Part shown: in pieces, positions 28,929 to 41,134 of the stretch
How positions within the stretch are numbered: the stretch's first letter is position 1
How the letters are laid out: each line of letters opens with the position of its first letter
Assembly (NCBI GenBank): GCA_009841235.1
Contig: VXMH01000010.1
Span: forward strand, 1-41,134
Length of the DNA: 41,134 bases
DNA from: Caldilineaceae bacterium SB0661_bin_32
Lineage (GTDB): Bacteria; Chloroflexota; Anaerolineae; Caldilineales; Caldilineaceae
Direction of reading: 5' to 3'
Notes under the pieces: model-generated
What the model was told of the DNA's origin: nothing
The model's input: only the letters and a program-made list of their open reading frames with translations
The model's database searches: none
Program-made: the position numbers and the translations under genes

Positions 28929-31637
28929 ATGAGTCCCTTTTGCCGCGAAAAACACCAAAGGCGGAACAGCGTGCCAACATACACCCGACTGCATTGGGGA
29001 AAGTCGGACAGACAGGCCCCTCAGCGCATCCATCTCCTCGAACATCACCTTGCCGACGTGAGCGCCTGCTTCGAGGCCCTGCTCAGGCAGCCGGCAATCC
29101 GCAAACGGCTGGCCCGCGCCGGCGGCAGGCATGACCTGGACGAAACAACCGCCGCGCGGCTCTGCGTCCTGGCCGCCCTGCACGACGTCGGCAAAGTCAA
29201 CACCGGTTTTCAGACGCAGATCTGGCGCCCCGAGGACCTGCCTCCGCAGCGCAAGAGGCCGCCGCGTGCGGGGCATGTCACGGATCTCGTGCCTGTGCTG
29301 GAGTGGAAGGATGAGGAGACGGCGGACTGGTTCCTCGACGCTCTGGGCGCGACCGGGATCATGGAGTGGGACAGCGATGACGGGTCAACCGCAAGCGGCC
29401 TGTTGATCGCAGCGTTTTCACATCATGGCTCGCCGCTGAATCGGTCGTCCGATCGCGCTGCCAACCCCGCGGCCTGGCGTCCCTTCGGCGGCCTCAACCC
29501 GCGCCAGTGTGTCGCACACGTCGTCCAGCTCGTACGCGGCTGGTTCCCGGCGGCCTACGCGCCGGCAGGGGCGCCTCTGCCTTCGGCCCCCGGCTTTCAG
29601 CACATGTTCCTGGGCCTCTGCACGCTGGCAGACTGGCTCGGCTCCGACGAACGGTTCTTCGAATTCTGTGACCGGCCCCGGGACGACTACATCGTTTTGG
29701 CGCGGGAACGGGCCCACAGCGCTGTCTCCGCTATCGGTCTGGACGTGGAGGCGCAGCGGAACGCTTTGCCGGATCTGCCCGCCTTCGGGACGCTGTTCGC
29801 TATCGACGGCCATCCCAACGCCATGCAGAAGCGGGCAGCGGATCTCCCGCTGGATGAGCCTCTGGTTATCATCGAGTCGGAGACGGGGTCCGGCAAGACG
29901 GAGGCGGCTTTGTGGCGTTTCGCCCGCATGTATGCAGCCGGACTGGTGGACGGCCTCTACTTTGCCCTTCCGACCCGTTCGGCGGCCTCTCAGATACACA
30001 AGCGTGTAACAGACTTTGTTGGCAGCATGTTTCCGGCAGACCATTTCCCGGAGCCGGTCCTTGCAGTCCCCGGCTACCTGCGGGCGGGCGGCGTGGAGGG
30101 TAAGCAGTTGCCGCATTACGAGGTCTGGTGGGATGACCAGCACAGCGCAGCCGGTCCGGTAATCAAGCGGCGGTGGGCGGCTGAAAGCGCCAAGCGCTAC
30201 CTGGCGGCGCAGATCGCGGTGGGGACGGTCGATCAGGCGATGATGGCCGCGCTGCAGGTCCGGCACGCACATATGCGCGCGGCCTGCCTGGCCCGCAATC
30301 TGCTGGTCGTGGACGAGGTGCACGCTTCGGACCAGTATATGCGGGTGATTCTGGAGGGGCTGCTGGACGCCCATATCGGCGCCGGCGGCTATGCCTGCCT
30401 GATGTCGGCCACGCTTGGCTCGGTTGCCAGGCAGCGGTTCTCTGCGCCGGGCCGTCTTGCCGGCGGGGGCGGCGTTTCACTGCACGAGGCGCTGGAGGTC
30501 CGCTATCCGGCCATCACCACGCGCGGCGCGGCGGGGGAGAAGGTGGTTGCCGTCGGGGAGAGCGGCCGGAGCAAGGCGGTCCGGGTTGAGACGTTGCCGG
30601 CGATGGCGGCGTTTGCCGCGGCGGCAGACCGCGGCCTGGAGGCGGCGCGGGCGGGCGCAAAGGTCCTGATCGTTCGCAACACGGTCGGCTTCGCCGTCCG
30701 GACACAGCAGGCGCTGGAGGAGCGGGCCGCGCCCGCTGAACGGCATCTGTTATTCGGGGTCGATGGCCTGCTGACGCTGCATCACGGCCGCTTCGCTGCT
30801 GAGGACCGCCGCCGCCTGGACGCGGCGGTGGAGGCGCAGATCGGGAAGAGCCGCGGACCGGGCGGGCGCGTCATCGTCGGCACGCAGACGCTGGAGCAGT
30901 CGCTGGACATCGATGCCGACCTGCTGATCACCGATCTCTGTCCAATGGATGTGTTGCTGCAACGGATTGGCCGCCTGCATCGCCATGCGCGCGCTGGCCG
31001 ACCCGCAGATTATCGCAGTCCGGCCTGCCTCGTATTGATGCCCGAAGATGATGACCTGTCCCCCTGGCTGACGCGGAGGAAGGATACGAACGGTCTGGGG
31101 CCGAACGGCTTCGTCTATGAAGACCTGCGCATCTTGGAGGCGACGGCGCGGCTGGTGGCGGAGCACGCGGCCAGCGGTACGTTCTGGGACATTCCCGGTA
31201 TGAACCGGGCGCTGGTGGAGCGCAGTACGCACCCGGAAGCGCTGGAGGCGATCACGGAGGCGATGGGGGAGGACTGGCGTGAGCACGCCATCAAAATGGA
31301 GGGTGTCTACATCGCCGACAACCTGACTGCCCGGCAGGTGATCATCCGCCGCGACCGCTCCTTCTATGAGGAGAACCGGGATGTCGTATTCCCCGATGTT
31401 GAAGAGAGGGTCCGCACCAGGCTGGGCGATGAGGGTGTTGAAATCACGCTGGAGCCGGCCGCGCCCAGCCCTCTGGCCGGCGACGGAACTATTCCCCGGA
31501 TCGTGATCCCCGGCCACATGGCCCATGGGCTGACTGGCGAGGAGCCGGTCCCCTGGACAGCGGGGGAGGGTGGATTCGAGTTTACGGCTGGCGACAGGCG
31601 TTTTCGCTATGACCGCCTGGGCTTGCGCCAGCTGTGA
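28929..31637 (+). CDS. cas3: Cas3 HD nuclease-helicase, type I-E
   Basis: The 902-residue protein is the nuclease-helicase recruited by Cascade to degrade target DNA. The N-terminal HD domain has HLLEHHLADV and ALHDVGKVNTGFQ (His85, Asp86). The superfamily 2 helicase part has Walker A ESETGSGKTEAAL (Lys323), the DEVH box VVDEVHAS (Asp462), MSATLG, and motif VI QRIGRLHRHAR (from Gln678). A C-terminal accessory domain follows to the end. All catalytic motifs look intact. It is the first gene of the operon, 25 bp before cas8e. The start codon is not backed by a strong ribosome-binding site, so the first residues are uncertain. Confidence 0.95.
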   Translation: MSPFCREKHQRRNSVPTYTRLHWGKSDRQAPQRIHLLEHHLADVSACFEALLRQPAIRKRLARAGGRHDLDETTAARLCVLAALHDVGKVNTGFQTQIWRPEDLPPQRKRPPRAGHVTDLVPVLEWKDEETADWFLDALGATGIMEWDSDDGSTASGLLIAAFSHHGSPLNRSSDRAANPAAWRPFGGLNPRQCVAHVVQLVRGWFPAAYAPAGAPLPSAPGFQHMFLGLCTLADWLGSDERFFEFCDRPRDDYIVLARERAHSAVSAIGLDVEAQRNALPDLPAFGTLFAIDGHPNAMQKRAADLPLDEPLVIIESETGSGKTEAALWRFARMYAAGLVDGLYFALPTRSAASQIHKRVTDFVGSMFPADHFPEPVLAVPGYLRAGGVEGKQLPHYEVWWDDQHSAAGPVIKRRWAAESAKRYLAAQIAVGTVDQAMMAALQVRHAHMRAACLARNLLVVDEVHASDQYMRVILEGLLDAHIGAGGYACLMSATLGSVARQRFSAPGRLAGGGGVSLHEALEVRYPAITTRGAAGEKVVAVGESGRSKAVRVETLPAMAAFAAAADRGLEAARAGAKVLIVRNTVGFAVRTQQALEERAAPAERHLLFGVDGLLTLHHGRFAAEDRRRLDAAVEAQIGKSRGPGGRVIVGTQTLEQSLDIDADLLITDLCPMDVLLQRIGRLHRHARAGRPADYRSPACLVLMPEDDDLSPWLTRRKDTNGLGPNGFVYEDLRILEATARLVAEHAASGTFWDIPGMNRALVERSTHPEALEAITEAMGEDWREHAIKMEGVYIADNLTARQVIIRRDRSFYEENRDVVFPDVEERVRTRLGDEGVEITLEPAAPSPLAGDGTIPRIVIPGHMAHGLTGEEPVPWTAGEGGFEFTAGDRRFRYDRLGLRQL

Positions 31638-31661: not shown

Positions 31662-33242
31662 ATGGCTGACAATATCCTGGAAGATCCGATTATACGGATC
31701 TCGACATCAGACGGGTCGACCGGTCATGTATCGTTGCCGGCGGTCTATGCGGCGCTAATGCGGGACGAAGTTGACGCCTTCCCCGCGCTCAGGCCCCATC
31801 AGCGCCACGCCTGGCACGCCTTTCTGGCGCAGTTGGGCGCGGCGGCGATGCAATGCGCCGGGCTGAGCGAACCGCCGGACAGCGCCGAAGAGTGGCGGCG
31901 CATGGTGCGCGAACTGACTCCCGATTTTCCCGACGATGAGCCCTGGCATCTCGTTGTGGAGGATATTACCAGGCCGGCATTCATGCAGCCGCCCGCCAGA
32001 TCGGACGACAGGTTTAAGGATTACAAGACCGTTGTTCCAACACCGGATGGACTGGATATGCTGGTCCTCTCGAAGAATCACGACATCAAGTCGGCTGTGG
32101 CGGTGGAGGCGGAAGCGGACGACTGGATCTTTGCCCTGATCACACTGCAGACGATGGAGGGTTTCAGCGGGGCGGGCAACTACGGAATCTCGAGGATGAA
32201 CGGCGGATTGGGCAGTCGGGCGGCCTTCTCTCTCACGCCTTCGACAAGGCCCGGCGTGCATCTGCGGCGCGATTTGAAGGGACTGTCTGAGAGGTACGAA
32301 TCGCTGTTAGCAGACTATTCCATGAGCGATTTTGGCGTTGCTCTGCTTTGGACGCTTCCCTGGGACGGGACGAAGAGCGAAGCGCTGCTCCCGGACCGGT
32401 TGCACCCGTACTATATTGAAATCTGCCGGCGCATCCGCTTGCGCGTCAGCGCCGGCGGCGATTTGTACGGCCTCAGAACAAGCTCGAAGGCGGCGCGCGT
32501 TGAGGCGAAAAGTCTGAACGGGATAACGGGCGACCCCTGGATGCCGATCAACCGCAAGGAGAGCAAGGCGCTTACGCTGGCCAGCGGAGGGTTTACTTAC
32601 AGACGGGTGACCGAATATCTGACCTCGGCGAATTGGGAGCAGCCCGCGCTCTTGCAGCCAGTCCGCTCCGAACAGAATGAATCGGCGCCGACGTTGCTGC
32701 TTGCGCGTGCGTTGGTGCGGGGGCAGGGCAAGACCGAAGGCTACCACGAACGCATCATCCCTGTCAGCCATAAGGTCAAGCGGGCGCTGATGCAGCGCGA
32801 GAACATGAACGAGCTTGACAGAATCGCCCAATCCCGCATTGAAAACATCAGCACGGTCCAGCGCATTCTCAGCCATGCGATCCAGGTCTTCGCGGCCAGG
32901 GGCGATGGCCAGAATCTGAGCAACGAACACCGCAAGCTGGCCCGCCCGTGGCTCAACAGGCTCGACGCATTCGTTGATTCCTGTTTTTTCGACGATCTGC
33001 AGGTTGAGTTTGAGAGCAATGACAGGGACGAACGCAGCCGCATACGAAAAAAATGGCTGCTGGATGGAGAGAGAGGGGTCGTAAACCGGGCGCGCAGAAT
33101 CCTGGGGGAGGCTGAAGAAGGGTTGCCCTGCCCGGCCATCCACCGCTACCGCGCCCGCGCCAACGCCGAGAATCTGTTCGAAGGAAGAATTCGAGGGCCG
33201 CAAGGGTTGCCGTTTCTATTTGAAGACGCAGAGGAGGAGTAA
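31662..33242 (+). CDS. cas8e: Cas8e (Cse1/CasA), large subunit of type I-E Cascade
   Basis: The 526-residue protein recognises the PAM and recruits Cas3. It has the Cse1 layout: an N-terminal part (SLPAVYAALMRDEVDAFPAL, RPHQRHAWHAFLAQLGAAAM), the DDEPWHLVVEDITRPAFMQPP segment, a middle region with FSGAGNYGISRMNGGLGSR, and a C-terminal helical bundle from about residue 390. Length is normal for the family. GAGGAG lies upstream of the ATG. It ends two bases before the next gene, whose ribosome-binding site (GAGGAGGAG) lies inside the cas8e 3' end. Confidence 0.93.
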   Translation: MADNILEDPIIRISTSDGSTGHVSLPAVYAALMRDEVDAFPALRPHQRHAWHAFLAQLGAAAMQCAGLSEPPDSAEEWRRMVRELTPDFPDDEPWHLVVEDITRPAFMQPPARSDDRFKDYKTVVPTPDGLDMLVLSKNHDIKSAVAVEAEADDWIFALITLQTMEGFSGAGNYGISRMNGGLGSRAAFSLTPSTRPGVHLRRDLKGLSERYESLLADYSMSDFGVALLWTLPWDGTKSEALLPDRLHPYYIEICRRIRLRVSAGGDLYGLRTSSKAARVEAKSLNGITGDPWMPINRKESKALTLASGGFTYRRVTEYLTSANWEQPALLQPVRSEQNESAPTLLLARALVRGQGKTEGYHERIIPVSHKVKRALMQRENMNELDRIAQSRIENISTVQRILSHAIQVFAARGDGQNLSNEHRKLARPWLNRLDAFVDSCFFDDLQVEFESNDRDERSRIRKKWLLDGERGVVNRARRILGEAEEGLPCPAIHRYRARANAENLFEGRIRGPQGLPFLFEDAEEE

Positions 33243-33244
33243 CG

Positions 33245-34201
33245 ATGTCGCAGCAACAACCTACTACTGCTGGCGCAGAATCCCGACGCAAAGCAGATTC
33301 ATCCATTCCCACCGAACGATCTCCTCGGGAACTGCACTTTACTCAGGAGGTGATTGACACAGCGCAACATTACGGGTGGCAACCATTCCATCTCCGAGAC
33401 CGGGAGAGTGCGGCTATTGTTCGAGGCAGAGGGTTCCCGGACTTGGTATTGTTTCGGGAAGACCAGCTGATTATTGCTGAACTGAAACGGGACGAATCCA
33501 GCCAGCTATCGGCCGATCAGGTTGGTTGGTTAAACGCATTTCGCCAGCACGTGCCTGCCTATGAATGGCGGCCCAGAGATTGGGACGAAATAGAGAAAGT
33601 TCTTAGACACGGTGGCGTAGTCCAAAGCGATGGTAAGACTCCGCCCTCTGGAAGGAGACATTTGGGCACCAACCAGATACCGAGAAATTTCCACTCTGTT
33701 ATACAGGGCCTGGCTGAAACGATTGAAGACAAGGAGTTTGATCGCGGCGACAGATCGAGATTACGTCGCATGGACCCTGACAATCCAGATACCGCTGCCT
33801 TCTGGAGACTATTAGTCAGAGCGGGAATGCCGGAAGACCCCGACATCAGCAAATGGGGATTAATCATACACGGCATGGCGCTAATGTCTCACGGCGCGGA
33901 ACTCGCGCATAACCCTCGGATTTCCATTGGTCGCGCGCTGTATCAGGGTGGAGGGCAAAGAGTACCCTTTTACTCTGAGAAACGTCTATCGACTTTGCTC
34001 GCGGCCAGAGATCCTACGCTGCACCGTCTGCTGGCGAGGCTGTTCCGTATGCTATCTGCTGAAGGATGCGCTTTCAATTGGTTTGAGATGACCAGATTTA
34101 TCCTTTACGAAGGGTACGACGAAGGCGGGGCAGACCAGATCCGAGTCGAGATTGCCCGCGAGTACTACCGAACGGAACGACAAAACACGCCGTCAGAGTA
34201 A
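33245..34201 (+). CDS. cse2: VRR-NUC nuclease domain fused to Cse2 (Cas11e/CasB)
   Basis: The 318-residue protein is about twice the usual Cse2 length. Residues about 29-122 form a VRR-NUC domain: HFTQEVIDTAQHYGWQPFHL (Glu35), GFPDLVLF (Asp66), IIAELKRD (Glu79, Lys81), QLSADQVGWL (Gln92) and YEWRPRDWDEIEKVL. These are the PD-(D/E)XK catalytic positions, all intact. A linker (about 123-148) leads to the Cse2 domain (about 150-310): DRGDRSRLRRMDPD, AAFWRLLVRAGMP, GLIIHGMALMSHG, SIGRALYQGGG, LHRLLARLFRMLS and a final REYYRTER. The reading frame is continuous, and the start has GAGGAGGAG at the right distance, two bases after cas8e. The gene is visibly lower in GC than cas8e and cas7e. Cse2 forms a dimer along the R-loop of Cascade, so the fusion would place a nuclease beside the displaced strand; this role is inference. 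Confidence 0.88.
   Translation: MSQQQPTTAGAESRRKADSSIPTERSPRELHFTQEVIDTAQHYGWQPFHLRDRESAAIVRGRGFPDLVLFREDQLIIAELKRDESSQLSADQVGWLNAFRQHVPAYEWRPRDWDEIEKVLRHGGVVQSDGKTPPSGRRHLGTNQIPRNFHSVIQGLAETIEDKEFDRGDRSRLRRMDPDNPDTAAFWRLLVRAGMPEDPDISKWGLIIHGMALMSHGAELAHNPRISIGRALYQGGGQRVPFYSEKRLSTLLAARDPTLHRLLARLFRMLSAEGCAFNWFEMTRFILYEGYDEGGADQIRVEIAREYYRTERQNTPSE
33652..33664 (+). promoter_or_regulatory. Internal ribosome-binding site and TTG start for free Cse2
   Basis: AAGGAG (33652-33657) is followed after four bases by TTG (33662-33664), in frame at codon 140 and just before the Cse2 domain. Initiation here would give a 179-residue protein, the normal size of a stand-alone Cse2. There is no other Met codon between residues 1 and 176. 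Internal starts that make small subunits are known in types I-B, I-C and I-D. Confidence 0.5.
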
Positions 34202-34245: not shown

Positions 34246-35415
34246 ATGTCCGTTTCACGTTTTTTGCAGATTCACAGCCTCCATTCCTATCCGGCTGCAC
34301 TGCTCAACCGCGATGACAGCGGCCTGGCGAAACGCATGCCGTTTGGCGACGCGGTGCGCACACGGATCTCCTCGCAGTGTCTCAAGAGGCACTGGCGCAC
34401 GGCTGACGACGAGTACGCGATCCACAAGATCCCCAATGTTGCCGGAGCAATACGCTCGCGCAATGTCATTGACCGCGAGGTGATCGAACCGCTGCGGGAA
34501 GGCGGGGGGATCGACGAAGAGGTACTGTCTGCGGTTGAAGAGGCGTTCAACATTGGGGTGTACGGCAGCAGCGGCACCAGCGAAAGCGGTCGTCAGCCTC
34601 TCCTGCTCGGTCTGCCGGAGGTATCGTATCTGCGCGACAAGGCGGACGCCATCTGCCGGGCGCACGCGCAGGATGCCAAGGCCGCCGGTCAGAGCGCGAA
34701 GGATCTGTTCGGCAAGGAGGAACGCGACAACTTCAAGGCATTCCGCCAGGAGACGGCTCTCCCCGGCGGGCTGGAAAGCGCGCTCTTCGGCCGCATGGTG
34801 ACGTCTGACCCGGCCGCCAATATCGATGCCGCGGTCCACGTGGCCCATGCCTTCACAGTCCATCGCGAGGAGAGTGAGAGCGACTATTTCTCGGTCGTAG
34901 ACGACCTGCAGGGCGACGATGAAGACGCCGGCGCGGCGCATATCGGCGACACCGAGCTGACCGCCGGCCTCTTCTACGGCTATGTTGTCGTCGACGTTCC
35001 CGGCCTGATTTCAAACCTGCAGGGCTGTGAGGCCCAAGCGTGGCAGAGCGCCGACCGTTCGTTGGGCGCCCAGGTCGTCAAACATCTCATCCATCTCATC
35101 GCCACCGTATCGCCCGGCGCCAAGCTCGGCTCCACTGCTCCGTATTCCTATGCCGACCTGATCCTGATCGAGATCGGGACGCGGCAGCCGCGCAGCCTGG
35201 CGAACGCATTCCGCAGCCCGAGCTCCGCCCAGACAGCCGCCGCGGCCGCGGCCCTGGCTGGATACCTGACCCAACTCGACAACGCCTATGGCGTGCGCGA
35301 GGCCCGGCGGGTGATGTCGGTCGCCGACTGCGACATTCCCAATGCGGACCGCCTCTGCCTGGACGATCTGGCCGCCTGGACTGCGGGCGCGGTCCAATCC
35401 GGGGAGGCGGCCTGA
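34246..35415 (+). CDS. cas7e: Cas7e (Cse4/CasC), backbone subunit of Cascade
   Basis: The 389-residue backbone protein binds crRNA and forms six copies in type I-E Cascade. The N-terminus FLQIHSLHSYPAALLNRDDS and the block KRMPFGDAVRTRISSQCLKR are diagnostic. Later segments are HVAHAFTVHREESESDYFSV and GDTELTAGLFYGYVVVDV. The start at 34246 is preferred over an upstream TTG, because MSVSRFLQIHS is the family beginning and AAAGGA is upstream. It is 44 bp after the fused Cse2 gene and 1 bp before cas5e. Confidence 0.95.
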   Translation: MSVSRFLQIHSLHSYPAALLNRDDSGLAKRMPFGDAVRTRISSQCLKRHWRTADDEYAIHKIPNVAGAIRSRNVIDREVIEPLREGGGIDEEVLSAVEEAFNIGVYGSSGTSESGRQPLLLGLPEVSYLRDKADAICRAHAQDAKAAGQSAKDLFGKEERDNFKAFRQETALPGGLESALFGRMVTSDPAANIDAAVHVAHAFTVHREESESDYFSVVDDLQGDDEDAGAAHIGDTELTAGLFYGYVVVDVPGLISNLQGCEAQAWQSADRSLGAQVVKHLIHLIATVSPGAKLGSTAPYSYADLILIEIGTRQPRSLANAFRSPSSAQTAAAAAALAGYLTQLDNAYGVREARRVMSVADCDIPNADRLCLDDLAAWTAGAVQSGEAA

Positions 35416-35416
35416 C

Positions 35417-36190
35417 ATGCGCCATCTGATACTCGCGCTGGAAGCGCCGTTGATGGCCTTTGGCGGGGAGATCGTCGACAACTATGGCGTCGTCCGCTGG
35501 TTTCCCGCCGCTTCGATGCTGACCGGTCTCCTGGCCAATGCCCTGGGCTGGCGGCGGACTGAGGCCGAACGGCATCAGGAACTGCAAGAGCGCTTGATCT
35601 ACGCGGCCCGCATCGACCGCGAGCCGGCCGGCGGCGTGCGGCTGACCGATTTTCAGACCGCTAAGCTAAACAAAAGCGACAAAGGTTGGACCACCCGAGG
35701 CCAACACGAAGACAGGGCGGGCGGGATAAAAACATACGACGCCCCACATCTGCGTTACCGCGACTACCTGGCCGATATGCGCGTCACGGTCGTCCTGCGG
35801 ATGGAAGAGGCCGAATTCGAACCCGCTCTGGAAGATCTGGCGGAGGCGCTCGAGCAGCCGTCCCGGCCGCTGTTTATCGGACGCAAACCCTGTCTGCCTT
35901 CCACGGCGCTGTTCCAGGGCTTCCAGGAGGGTGAGACGGTCTTGACCGCCCTGCTGGCCGTGCCCCTGGAGAGGCAGGATGAGCAGACGGAGAGCATTCG
36001 CGTACTGTGGCCTGCGGGTGAGGGTGCTGGGAGCGTCAGGCCCAGCCGCACCTATATGCTGACCGACGAACGCAACTGGATTTCCGGTCTGCACGGGGGC
36101 GGCCGCAGTGTGTGCGAGTCTGCGGTGCCCGCGGCCCGCTTCCCCGTGACAGGCAGTGACGAAGCGCAACCGGAGGAGGAACAATCATAG
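35417..36190 (+). CDS. cas5e: Cas5e (CasD), crRNA 5'-handle-binding subunit
   Basis: The 257-residue RAMP protein begins MRHLILALEAPLMAFGGEIV, the characteristic Cas5e start, with NYGVVRWFPAASMLTGLLAN. It caps the 5' handle of the crRNA together with Cas8e. The end has RTYMLTDERNWISGLHGGGR. The gene starts one base after the cas7e stop, and its TAG shares a base with the GTG of cas6e, indicating tight co-translation. Confidence 0.93.
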   Translation: MRHLILALEAPLMAFGGEIVDNYGVVRWFPAASMLTGLLANALGWRRTEAERHQELQERLIYAARIDREPAGGVRLTDFQTAKLNKSDKGWTTRGQHEDRAGGIKTYDAPHLRYRDYLADMRVTVVLRMEEAEFEPALEDLAEALEQPSRPLFIGRKPCLPSTALFQGFQEGETVLTALLAVPLERQDEQTESIRVLWPAGEGAGSVRPSRTYMLTDERNWISGLHGGGRSVCESAVPAARFPVTGSDEAQPEEEQS

Positions 36191-36963
36191 TGACTGTTCA
36201 GGAAAGCGGCCTGGTGACGGCACGGACATTGCAGATGATTCGGGCGGAGATAGACCTGCGCTCCTTCCAGCATTGGGCCGGATCGCGGCAGATGATAGGC
36301 CGCCAGACGTTTGATGAGGGGTACGCCATGCACTGTTTCCTCGCCGGTGTATTCGGGGAGCTGGCGCCGCAGCCATTCCGCTTGATCATTCCCAGGAGCA
36401 AGGGCAACCGCCGGGGCGTATTCTACGGCTATGGCCGCGCCGGCGTGGAGGCGTTGCGAGGCGCGACCGCACAGTTTGCCGACCCGCTCCAGGCCCGTGT
36501 GCTGCCCGGTTCGACTCTGGAAGGCAAGCCGATGCCGGCAACGTGGAAGGCAGGTACGCGGCTGGGATTCGAGCTTCTCACCCGCCCTACGATTCGCCGC
36601 TCAAAAAGAGCTGCAACCCATCAGGGCACAGAGTGGGACGCTTTCCTCTGGGAAGCAATCCAGCATCCAAAAGGAGAAATGCCGCGCGGCAGGGAGGAGG
36701 TCTATAAGGATTGGCTGCGAGAGCGGTTCCGGCGCCGCGGCGGGGCGGAGCTGGAAGAGGCGAGGCTCGCCTCTTTTCAGCGGACGCGGGTTATTCGCCG
36801 GCGCGGTTCCCGCCCAATCGAGGGTCCCGATGCCCTGATGTCGGGGGCTCTGACCATCACCGACGGCGAAAAGTTCGCCCAGCTGCTGGCGCGAGGAATC
36901 GGCCGTCATCGCGCCTACGGTTACGGGATGCTGCTTCTGCGTCCGCCGGGAAAGCCGGCCTGA
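36190..36963 (+). CDS. cas6e: Cas6e (Cse3/CasE), pre-crRNA endoribonuclease
   Basis: The 257-residue protein starts at GTG 36190, overlapping the cas5e stop. It cuts CRISPR transcripts at the base of the repeat hairpin and stays bound to the crRNA. Features: LRSFQHWAGSRQMIGRQTFD near the N-terminus, DEGYAMHCFLAGVFGELAPQ, RGVFYGYGRAGVEAL, and the Gly-rich C-terminal RAMP loop RGIGRHRAYGYGMLLLRPPG. The expected catalytic His lies near residues 25-45, but I cannot assign it without an alignment. It is the last gene before the array; no cas1 or cas2 follows. Confidence 0.93.
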   Translation: MTVQESGLVTARTLQMIRAEIDLRSFQHWAGSRQMIGRQTFDEGYAMHCFLAGVFGELAPQPFRLIIPRSKGNRRGVFYGYGRAGVEALRGATAQFADPLQARVLPGSTLEGKPMPATWKAGTRLGFELLTRPTIRRSKRAATHQGTEWDAFLWEAIQHPKGEMPRGREEVYKDWLRERFRRRGGAELEEARLASFQRTRVIRRRGSRPIEGPDALMSGALTITDGEKFAQLLARGIGRHRAYGYGMLLLRPPGKPA

Positions 36964-37018
36964 CGGATGTGATTCGTTTGCTAAGTGCACATTAACAATC
37001 GAATACTCTCCACCTCAT
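36964..37018 (+). promoter_or_regulatory. Short leader between cas6e and the CRISPR array
   Basis: Only 55 bases separate cas6e from the first repeat. It is AT-richer than its surroundings and includes TTTGCTAAGTGCACATT and CAATCGAATACT, which may be a weak promoter (TTGCTA, 18-base spacer, AATACT). Type I-E leaders are commonly longer. The array may be read mostly from the cas promoter. Confidence 0.45.
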
Positions 37019-37107
37019 GGTTCCCCGTACACGGCGGGGATAGACCTCAGGCGATCAACCACGCCTCGGTTGCTGTAACGGTTCCCCCGCACACGCGGGG
37101 ATAGACC

Positions 37108-37201
37108 CCAGAACATCCGCCGCAGAGCCTCGCGATTCAAGGTTCCCCCGCACACGCGGGGATAGACCTTCGTCTTGCCGAGATTCCAGACACCCACGCC
37201 G
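37108..37201 (+). repeat. Spacers 2-3, duplicated block (first copy)
   Basis: Spacer 2 begins CCAGAACATCCGCC and spacer 3 begins TTCGTCTTGCCGAG. Both occur again in the same order, with the intervening repeat, at 40524-40617. Confidence 0.97.
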
Positions 37202-40200
37202 GGTTCCCCCGCACACGCGGGGATAGACCGCTCGTTCCACTTCTTCAGCGGCGTGTTCATCGGGTTCCCCCGCACACGCGGGGATAGACCGTACCGGCGT
37301 TCATGTCGGATCAGGTCGTTCGCGGTTCCCCCGCACACGCGGGGATAGACCTCGTACATTCCTGACGTGCGGAAGGTCGTCAGCGGTTCCCCCGCACACG
37401 CGGGGATAGACCCTGCTAGGTCGCCATGCAGAACGACTAGGCTATGGTTCCCCCGCACACGCGGGGATAGACCTCCCGTTCACGTCCGAAGGATCAGACG
37501 CATTTGGGTTCCCCCGCACACGCGGGGATAGACCAGATAGGCACGTCTACAGGCGTGACAAAAACATGGTTCCCCCGCACACGCGGGGATAGACCGGCGG
37601 ACGCGTGGCAGGGTACAGCATTGTCTACGGTTCCCCCGCACACGCGGGGATAGACCTGCGCCCGCCTACTTCTTGAATCGGGCCGCCTTGGTTCCCCCGC
37701 ACACGCGGGGATAGACCCCTCGCACAAGCGACGGTGCGCTGGGCAAAACGGGTTCCCCCGCACACGCGGGGATAGACCTCGCGCTCCCGATCTTCGCGGG
37801 GCGTCATTCCGGGTTCCCCCGCACACGCGGGGATAGACCCTTGAACAACCACTCGGCCTGACCGTTGATTTGGGTTCCCCCGCACACGCGGGGATAGACC
37901 GTGTTCTCTGAACAGATAGGGGGGGGCGTGGTGGGTTCCCCCGCACACGCGGGGATAGACCCTTGGACTCCAGGCGGATGGCATGGCTTAACTTGGTTCC
38001 CCCGCACACGCGGGGATAGACCTATTCGTTGATATCCGTTGCGATTTTCGCCCGTGGTTCCCCCGCACACGCGGGGATAGACCCTGGTCACCGTGGGTTC
38101 GTGGTGGGTTGCGCCCGGTTCCCCCGCACACGCGGGGATAGACCTTGCGCCAATGCAAACGGGCGAACCGTGTTGGGGGTTCCCCCGCACACGCGGGGAT
38201 AGACCTGGCACAGGGCAGGCGGAGCGGTACGCCGGGCTGGTTCCCCCGCACACGCGGGGATAGACCGTACAGCGACATACTGACAGGCGTGACGGAAGGG
38301 GTTCCCCCGCACACGCGGGGATAGACCGTATTGAAACTCATAGAAAAGGAGCGTCAGAATGGTTCCCCCGCACACGCGGGGATAGACCCTCGGCGTCGTG
38401 TTCGGGTGGGGGATCATCTGCGGTTCCCCCGCACACGCGGGGATAGACCGAAACGCGTCTTTGCCCGCGTCGTCAAGCCCGTGGTTCCCCCGCACACGCG
38501 GGGATAGACCTTTCCGTCAGCATCACGGGCGATAGGGTGATTGGGTTCCCCCGCACACGCGGGGATAGACCGTCCTGATATTTCGGAGATGGGTACTTAG
38601 GTATGGTTCCCCCGCACACGCGGGGATAGACCTTGTGTCTTTCCATTAGGCCGCCGTCCTGAATGGGTTCCCCCGCACACGCGGGGATAGACCGTTCACC
38701 TACCGGCCCAGTCTCTACACCGTTGAGGTTCCCCCGCACACGCGGGGATAGACCTGGCGCATTCTGAACCAGTGGCCCAGCCCCAGTGGTTCCCCCGCAC
38801 ACGCGGGGATAGACCGGTCGCGGAATGGGGCGGGGGTGTGATGCCTGTGGTTCCCCCGCACACGCGGGGATAGACCTACCACCCTCCGCAGTCCAGCGCA
38901 ACAGTTACAGGTTCCCCCGCACACGCGGGGATAGACCCAGCCGCGAGATGGACGCAATGCACGAACAGAAGGTTCCCCCGCACACGCGGGGATAGACCCA
39001 TTGCCCACAGGTTGGACGGCGACGCCGCCAAGGTTCCCCCGCACACGCGGGGATAGACCCTGGCATAGTACGCGCCTTCCCTGTCGCCATCCGGTTCCCC
39101 CGCACACGCGGGGATAGACCCGCGTTCATATCGGCGGCGGGCGGCAATCTGCTGGTTCCCCCGCACACGCGGGGATAGACCTGATAGGCCGCCCGTCATC
39201 ACTCACGCCCCGCCGGTTCCCCCGCACACGCGGGGATAGACCTTCTTCACCCGTGTCTGTGCGGTGCGTGCGCCAGGTTCCCCCGCACACGCGGGGATAG
39301 ACCCGCCTCGTTGTTCGCCAACGTGCGCACCGCGTTGGTTCCCCCGCACACGCGGGGATAGACCGAGATCATACAGGGGGATTGTCTTGACGTTATGGGT
39401 TCCCCCGCACACGCGGGGATAGACCGTGGCCGATTATCTGTCCATGCACGCCTACGCCGGTTCCCCCGCACACGCGGGGATAGACCGCGTGTTGACGTTT
39501 ATCGCTACAGAGTCTGAAGGGTTCCCCCGCACACGCGGGGATAGACCCTTCGTCACGTTCCTTTATGTCAGGGTACGCGCGGTTCCCCCGCACACGCGGG
39601 GATAGACCCTTCATGGCTATCATTCCATTCAAGTATCCCGTGGTTCCCCCGCACACGCGGGGATAGACCCTGTCTGTGTCTGCACTTCGTCTTTGGGAAC
39701 GGGGTTCCCCCGCACACGCGGGGATAGACCTTCAGCGGCTACAATCGCATGGGCGAGTGGGTTGGTTCCCCCGCACACGCGGGGATAGACCCGGTTTCGA
39801 GTCAACGCAAAGTCTGTCAGAAGGGGTTCCCCCGCACACGCGGGGATAGACCGTGATATTTCGCCGGCGGGCGTTGCGTGGGATGGGTTCCCCCGCACAC
39901 GCGGGGATAGACCTTGAGGTGGTGGTGCGGTTGTCGGAACAGGAATGGTTCCCCCGCACACGCGGGGATAGACCCGGTATTGTGCGGGCCACCAGACCGA
40001 GTATGGTGGTTCCCCCGCACACGCGGGGATAGACCGTGAACAATTTCAGAGAGGGAGCGAGTGCGGGGGGTTCCCCCGCACACGCGGGGATAGACCCATT
40101 CAGAGCGCACAGCAAGCGTTCAGAGCCTAGGTTCCCCCGCACACGCGGGGATAGACCCGTCTTGTCAAGCCACGTACCCTCGACCAGAACGGTTCCCCCG

Positions 40201-40523
40201 CACACGCGGGGATAGACCAATACCGCGAACGTTCACTTCGCCGATTGTATTGGTTCCCCCGCACACGCGGGGATAGACCGTTGACGCCGGTCCCGGCATT
40301 CGGAGTGAACGTGGTTCCCCCGCACACGCGGGGATAGACCTCTGTCAGGTCTTCATCGGTGTAGTCGTGAATCGGTTCCCCCGCACACGCGGGGATAGAC
40401 CCTTGTGTTGAACGTGGGATTATGCCCCTTGACAGGTTCCCCCGCACACGCGGGGATAGACCTTGAGTGTGCATGCTGACTGGCAGGCGAGACGGGGTTC
40501 CCCCGCACACGCGGGGATAGACC

Positions 40524-40617
40524 CCAGAACATCCGCCGCAGAGCCTCGCGATTCAAGGTTCCCCCGCACACGCGGGGATAGACCTTCGTCTTGCCGAGAT
40601 TCCAGACACCCACGCCG
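40524..40617 (+). repeat. Spacers 58-59, duplicated block (second copy)
   Basis: Identical to 37108-37201 including the central repeat. The distance is 56 units (3,416 bp). Confidence 0.97.
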
Positions 40618-41011
40618 GGTTCCCCCGCACACGCGGGGATAGACCGGAGGCGAGATGCTGGTAGAGATCGTTACGATGGGTTCCCCCGCACACGCGGGGA
40701 TAGACCTACTGGATGGATTTATCCGGTTCCGAACCGACTGGTTCCCCCGCACACGCGGGGATAGACCCCCTGTACCGCCTGGCTGCCGCCTACCGCTACG
40801 GGTTCCCCCGCACACGCGGGGATAGACCGCGCCCTCAAACGTTCAGCCACGCGATTTTGCAGGTTCCCCCGCACACGCGGGGATAGACCGGGTTCGACAG
40901 GGTGCTCGACCTGGCACTGTCCGGTTCCCCCGCACACGCGGGGATAGACCCACGGGCAGCGAGCCTGGCCTGAACAACGCTGAGGTTCCCCCGCACACGC
41001 GGGGATAGACC

Positions 41012-41105
41012 CCCACGTGAGACGGTGCAGGTGGGCGAACCGAGGGTTCCCCCGCACACGCGGGGATAGACCCCCACGTGAGACGGTGCAGGTGGGCGAA
41101 CCGAG
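41012..41105 (+). repeat. Identical neighbouring spacers 66 and 67
   Basis: 41012-41044 and 41073-41105 are the same sequence (begins CCCACGTGAGACGG), so one repeat-spacer unit has been tandemly duplicated. Confidence 0.97.
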
Positions 41106-41134
41106 GGTTCCCCCGCACACGCGGGGATAGACCC

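Follow-up and report, generated by a model that had tools for sequence, protein, structure and literature searches.

The window analysed here (41,134 nucleotides, contig VXMH01000010.1 of Caldilineaceae bacterium SB0661_bin_32) contains a complete type I-E effector operon on the forward strand, made up of cas3 (28929..31637, with the motifs of the HD nuclease and of the helicase intact), cas8e (31662..33242), cas11 (33245..34201), cas7e (34246..35415), cas5e (35417..36190) and cas6e (36190..36963, counted from the first listed start of the open reading frame). The genes were assigned by family scans, supplemented for cas3 by a motif check and run for cas6e on 36205-36963. The operon is followed by a CRISPR array with a period of 61 nt (37019..41134), which has a degenerate repeat at 37019 and exact repeats from 37080 and continues beyond the window to contig position 41198. 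The array presumably also reads on the forward strand, as assigned by likeness to the E. coli repeat.

The cas11 gene is a single open frame of 318 amino acids that encodes an N-terminal VRR-NUC domain, a disordered linker and a complete Cse2/Cas11e domain. The Cse2/Cas11e domain (residues 148-318, 33686..34198) was identified by family scans and a fold match; the fused protein scored 69.5 bits against TIGR02548 (Cas11e/Cse2, cut-off 28.5), and the gene sits between cas8e and cas7e, as the definition of Cas11e/Cse2 demands. The linker (residues 122-147, 33608..33685) is poorly conserved and predicted to be disordered at residues 126-142 (pLDDT < 50). For the N-terminal part, the Pfam family PF08774 gave 19.0 bits with the whole protein and 20.7 bits with the piece, both under the gathering score of 23.8. 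The same family was matched at E<=0.01 in 19 of the 26 members of a protein alignment (A1, window included), and one protein (P0109, 40% identical) exceeds the gathering score. The region 33329..33607 matched the VRR_NUC structure 4qbn (Foldseek/VIA match, with the corresponding elements in the AF2 model; pTM of the full-length fusion prediction 0.57). The window protein also has E29, D66, E79, K81 and Q92, which together constitute the E-PD-EXK active site and specific glutamine by which the VRR-NUC active site is defined (PMC4103454). A chance likeness to VRR-NUC, as might be suspected from a Pfam score below cut-off, is ruled out by pairwise comparison with a family member, by the fold and by the residues. 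No relevant match was obtained in a PDB sequence search with the window protein, the profile of the VRR alignment A3 gave weak FAN1 matches only (E ~0.03, ranked under spurious ones) and the profile from alignment A2 gave nothing useful. Taken together, sequence comparison and fold prediction confirmed a VRR-NUC domain at the N-terminus of the window's Cas11, and the identification of both domains in the first-pass annotation was thereby borne out by family scans, fold and residues.

At the boundary between the two domains there is a possible internal start (33650..33664, forward strand), in which a Shine-Dalgarno-like GGAAGGAG (-8.8 kcal/mol) is followed by an in-frame TTG at codon 140. A Shine-Dalgarno sequence and start are present at the same place in G014, which belongs to the same genus as the window (-8.5 kcal/mol), and absent from the other three of the five fused loci. 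As a lead only, initiation at codon 140 could yield a nuclease-free Cas11; a conserved internal start with this function was rejected, given that a Shine-Dalgarno-backed codon occurs in just 2/5 fused loci.

Two protein searches returned 31 and 76 further sequences matching the VRR part, giving 107 relatives, 103 of which carry a precomputed Cse2 domain. This number of relatives rules out an assembly or frameshift error as the origin of the fusion, which the first-pass annotation had considered together with an absence of the fusion from related genomes. In one alignment of the window and the 107 relatives, D66, E79, K81 and Q92 were all kept in 99/108 sequences, and the remaining nine were seven N-terminally truncated proteins with a gap at D66, one decayed protein and one tandem copy. 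Truncation was judged by the letters for P0032 and by length (249-266 aa) and the D66 gap for the other six. By position, the aspartate of the GFPDL motif (D66, 33440..33442), to which the VRR-Nuc literature gives an active-site role, is D in 100/108 (seven gaps, one H); in the EXK motif E79-L80-K81 (33479..33487) the glutamate is kept in 106/108 and the lysine in 108/108; and Q92 (33518..33520), the glutamine specific to VRR-Nuc proteins (role from PMC4103454), is kept in 108/108. Position 29 is E in all 93 alignment rows bearing a letter there. The residue count included all 31 proteins of the first search, and alignment A1 was built from the window and 25 of these 31 (P0005, P0007, P0008, P0010, P0011 and P0032 were excluded, among them P0010 for a disrupted Cse2 end, P0011 as short and P0032 for a late start). 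Changes of E79 were found in a truncated gene (P0092) and in the second VRR copy of P0035, a protein of 460 aa with the tandem architecture VRR-VRR-Cse2. In P0035 the two VRR copies are 40% identical to each other, the first is intact and the second has both active-site acids changed (H at the position of D66), an arrangement that by its sequence looks like the active and inactive halves of a dimer. For one pair of loci, window against G014, dN/dS was 0.11 in the VRR core (18 synonymous and 9 nonsynonymous changes), 0.20 in Cse2 and 0.13 in cas7e and cas8e; the value for the linker (2.3) reflects one synonymous change and was left unused. In this pair, constraint on the nuclease domain is similar to that on the core Cas proteins.

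The first-pass annotation had stated that no VRR-NUC-Cse2 fusion was described, and this did not hold: one sentence of PMC10910872 (Altae-Tran 2023) reports I-E systems whose Cas11 is fused to a VRR-NUC nuclease, and PMC12669027 (Makarova 2025) names the fusion I-E3, notes that some of these systems have a Cas3 with an apparently active HD domain and leaves the role to be determined. I-E3 is thus described as a PD-(D/E)XK (VRR-NUC) nuclease on the Cas11 of type I-E, some with an apparently active Cas3 HD, and judged by its gene content and domain order the window is a further member of this variant; no difference from the published description was seen. To this description we add an apparent exchange at the level of the gene, an intact Cas3 in 5/5 loci and no large matched changes elsewhere in the operon. 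The variants I-E2 (Cas5-HNH) and I-F4 (Cas8-HNH) likewise carry an additional nuclease domain within a subunit of Cascade, but there the domain is HNH, sits in another subunit and typically occurs without Cas3 (PMC12669027), whereas the five fused loci keep an intact Cas3. The window has neither an HNH domain in Cas5 or Cas8 nor an absence of Cas3, and the scan of the six Cas proteins (E<=1) matched no HNH family. Compared with the canonical type I-E Cascade (E. coli Cse2), the Cas11 of the window has about 120 extra N-terminal residues of nuclease domain, and a linker. Standalone VRR-NUC proteins (PF08774) of phages and bacteria are 33-46% identical over most of the domain, and D, E, K and Q were invariant in the 13 rows of alignment A3; they differ in being free-standing and mostly about 95-130 aa long, the tested ones being dimers (PMC4103454).

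A scan of genome contigs found four fused loci in addition to the window, in Caldilineaceae (Chloroflexota; the locus of G014), Entotheonella (Tectimicrobiota; L005), Dehalococcoidia (L006) and Binatota (L007). A related Cas11 was present in 6/17 genomes of the window's genus, fused in two (the window's and G014) and unfused in four (G002, G009, G013 and G015). Even sampling of 400 genomes from the phylum, with five candidates scored per genome, gave nine with a match: the window (fused), six with the Cse2 part only and two with the VRR part only. In the phylum of the Entotheonella locus 1/5 genomes matched, namely that of the locus itself. Searched by tblastn, a plasmid collection gave one plain Cse2 match and a phage collection no match, and neither yielded the whole fusion. 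One genome (G481) had four standalone VRR-NUC matches across its four contigs (L024, L027-L029), perhaps the nuclease of a mobile element.

The protein identity between the window and the unfused operon of G002 was 81% for Cas8e, 91% for Cas7e, 80% for Cas5e, 74% for Cas6e and 51% for Cas11; between the window and the three fused loci from other classes or phyla (L005-L007) it was 58-60% for Cas11 and 72-74% for Cas7e. At the DNA level, window and G002 were 83% identical in cas8e, 59% in the Cse2 part and 89% in cas7e, and the VRR part is absent from G002. The change points lie in the last bases of cas8e (~33210-33240) and in the last ~50 bases of cas11 (~34150), near which G002 has much of the window's C-terminal cas11 sequence.

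Trees were compared for 14 loci, five fused and nine unfused, with the groups for the clade tests named after the identities had been seen. In the Cas11 tree the five fused rows fell on one side of a branch (100/100) and a clade of window, G014 and G002 was rejected (p-AU 7.8e-14). In the joined Cas8e-Cas7e-Cas5e-Cas6e tree these three operons formed one clade (100/100), and the five fused backbones as a single clade were rejected (p-AU 1.85e-80); cas3 was kept out of the backbone tree because in G002 and G228 it comes in two pieces. A distant locus (G344, L023) was included in the first trees and dropped from the clade tests as a long branch; in the single-gene trees that include it, Cas8e grouped window, G014 and G002 (100/100), the fused Cas11 clade was obtained at 93/100 and Cas7e alone did not resolve window, G014 and G002. 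The number of fixed columns specific to the fused loci was 14 in Cas11, a number reached by one of the 2002 groupings of five, the true one, as expected of a clade. It was zero in each of Cas8e, Cas7e, Cas5e, Cas6e and Cas3 (12/14 loci for cas3), and these zero counts are low in power (mean over all groupings of five 0.01-0.13) and exclude only large matched changes.

From these alignments, the fused gene is of single origin in this set of loci. Given that the Cas11 tree conflicts with the backbone tree, cas11 seems to have been swapped between standing I-E operons as a cassette of one gene, and the same conflict rules out whole-operon spread as the sole process. The near-isogenic contrast is one pair of lineages, of which the unfused side is one genome, G002, that is 81% complete and has an apparently broken cas3. 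Since G014 and G002 are nearest each other in cas5e and cas6e (92-94% DNA identity), a swap of plain for armed cas11 in the line of G002 is as possible as a gain. No mention of gene-level cas11 exchange was found in the literature searched, which included passages of PMC10910872 and PMC12669027.

The HD and helicase motifs of Cas3 were intact in 5/5 fused loci (the motif check covered 12/14 loci; the two others are G002 and G228). Substitution of the new nuclease for Cas3, as in the HNH variants, is ruled out for these five loci by their intact Cas3. In the unfused sister operon of G002, the match to cas3 is broken into two pieces that lie in different frames and leave about 27 residues uncovered (L033 5754-8349), which appears to be a pseudogene or an assembly error.

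HNH domains in Cascade cut target DNA (PMC10910872, PMC11459484). For the VRR-NUC domain of an I-E3-type Cas11 we predict nicking of the target where the R-loop forks, as an addition to the action of Cas3, and give this reading a little less than an even chance. In E. coli the R-loop is thought to be stabilised, and its displaced strand bound, by the two Cas11 subunits (PMC12235044), and VRR-Nuc enzymes act on branched DNA, cutting four-way junctions as dimers or, for FAN1, 5' flaps (PMC4103454) and, for TseV3, splayed arms (PMC9635880). The two ends of an R-loop are forks like these branched substrates. Cascade of E. coli has two copies of Cas11, and a complex built in the same way would place a pair of flexibly tethered VRR-NUC domains next to the displaced strand. 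Target binding would then carry the nuclease to its substrate and could lead to nicks in one or both strands, and such nicks or a double-strand break would assist the loading of Cas3 or stand in for a blocked Cas3. With Cas3 kept in the five loci, the nuclease would add to Cas3 rather than replace it, and given that no fixed change was seen in the five neighbouring Cas proteins, the domain probably needs only the normal seat of Cas11. The tether may let the domain reach other DNA too.

Some points count against cutting at R-loop forks. Cas3 is present in 5/5 loci and a second nuclease is therefore not required; the four-way junctions that standalone VRR-Nuc enzymes prefer are not known to form at Cascade. 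Given that Cas11 is dispensable for plasmid interference in E. coli (PMC12235044), cas11 could be exchanged freely even if the new domain were not put to use. A bolder version, which we consider unlikely, is that I-E Cascades swap small subunits like cassettes, either plain ones or ones carrying a resolvase-like nuclease, and thereby turn from a Cas3 recruiter into a Cas3-independent cutter of R-loop forks, for example against anti-CRISPRs that block Cas3, the two Cas11 subunits supplying a paired nuclease that cuts both strands. If Cascade does cut R-loop forks without Cas3, a surveillance complex would have gained cutting by trading one subunit and could serve as a compact programmable nicking tool. 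With armed cas11 in the window and G014 and plain cas11 in G002, the apparent exchange provides naturally matched operons in which a one-gene swap would show what the nuclease contributes.

Alternatively, the nuclease might act after Cas3, resolving branched or flapped intermediates that arise from Cas3 or from recombination repair of the phage and so preventing the target from being rebuilt, but tethering to Cas11 puts the domain at the R-loop, away from distant intermediates, and we regard this role as unlikely. A smaller chance still is given to a function in spacer acquisition, with the domain trimming DNA fragments for Cas1-Cas2 in primed adaptation, as would fit the Cas1e gene found within a few kb of the fused gene in 4/5 fused loci. 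A Cas1e gene is, however, also present in 3/4 plain-Cas11 operons of the window's genus, repeats are mainly spaced 61 nt apart in each of the 14 loci, the five fused and the nine unfused ones alike, and the window retains the domain in a genome (98.7% complete) in which neither an I-E Cas1 over the curated cut-off nor a Cas2e was found. The pre-spacer processing that the first-pass annotation had offered as an alternative is weakened by the equal spacing and by this genome without detectable I-E Cas1 or Cas2e.

Collateral activity reported for an HNH type I variant (PMC10910872) and double-strand breaks caused in cells by a VRR-Nuc effector (PMC9635880) would be compatible with an abortive defence, in which target binding unleashes non-specific cutting by the paired domains and damages the DNA of the whole cell; known VRR-Nuc enzymes are nevertheless structure-specific and no sign that a collateral activity is regulated was seen here, which makes this role hardly probable. 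The lowest probability falls to a domain that merely binds DNA and steadies the R-loop, its catalysis being irrelevant. Such a role would extend what Cas11 is itself thought to do, stabilising the R-loop and binding the displaced strand (PMC12235044), but the metal-binding and catalytic residues are kept in 99/108 sequences, and the two changes of E79 fall in the truncated P0092 and in the spare second copy of P0035. Nicking at R-loop forks in addition to Cas3 is the reading we prefer, in line with the first-pass proposal that Cascade may itself cut or nick DNA besides recruiting Cas3.

The array part of the window (37019-41134) had no match among 50,697 phage records (megablast). The array holds 67 spacers, 64 of them distinct, and the last ones repeat a single spacer, with a stretch of N at the end of the window (L030 17000-17200, contig 41000-41200), probably an assembly scar. 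Downstream of cas6e in G014 come, in this order, a single degenerate repeat, cas1-cas2, what is probably a leader, and the array; in the window, the lone degenerate repeat after cas6e leads directly into the array, and comparison of window 36963-37080 with L031 12935-14330 showed that the I-E cas1-cas2 pair and the leader are missing from the window. It is as if recombination between repeats had removed cas1-cas2 and leader, or as if the assembly had jumped. In G015, a single-contig genome with no I-E Cas1 match, a cas2e remnant with two in-frame stops was found (C1:4491523-4491690), and given this remnant the adaptation genes seem to decay repeatedly in the window's genus. The window's genome has two further Cas1 genes on other contigs (C40 and C24; L002 and L003), one of which adjoins frames that we take, by eye, to resemble Cas2 and Cas6, and the other lies within a 571-aa frame that presumably, again by eye, resembles a Cas4-Cas1 fusion.
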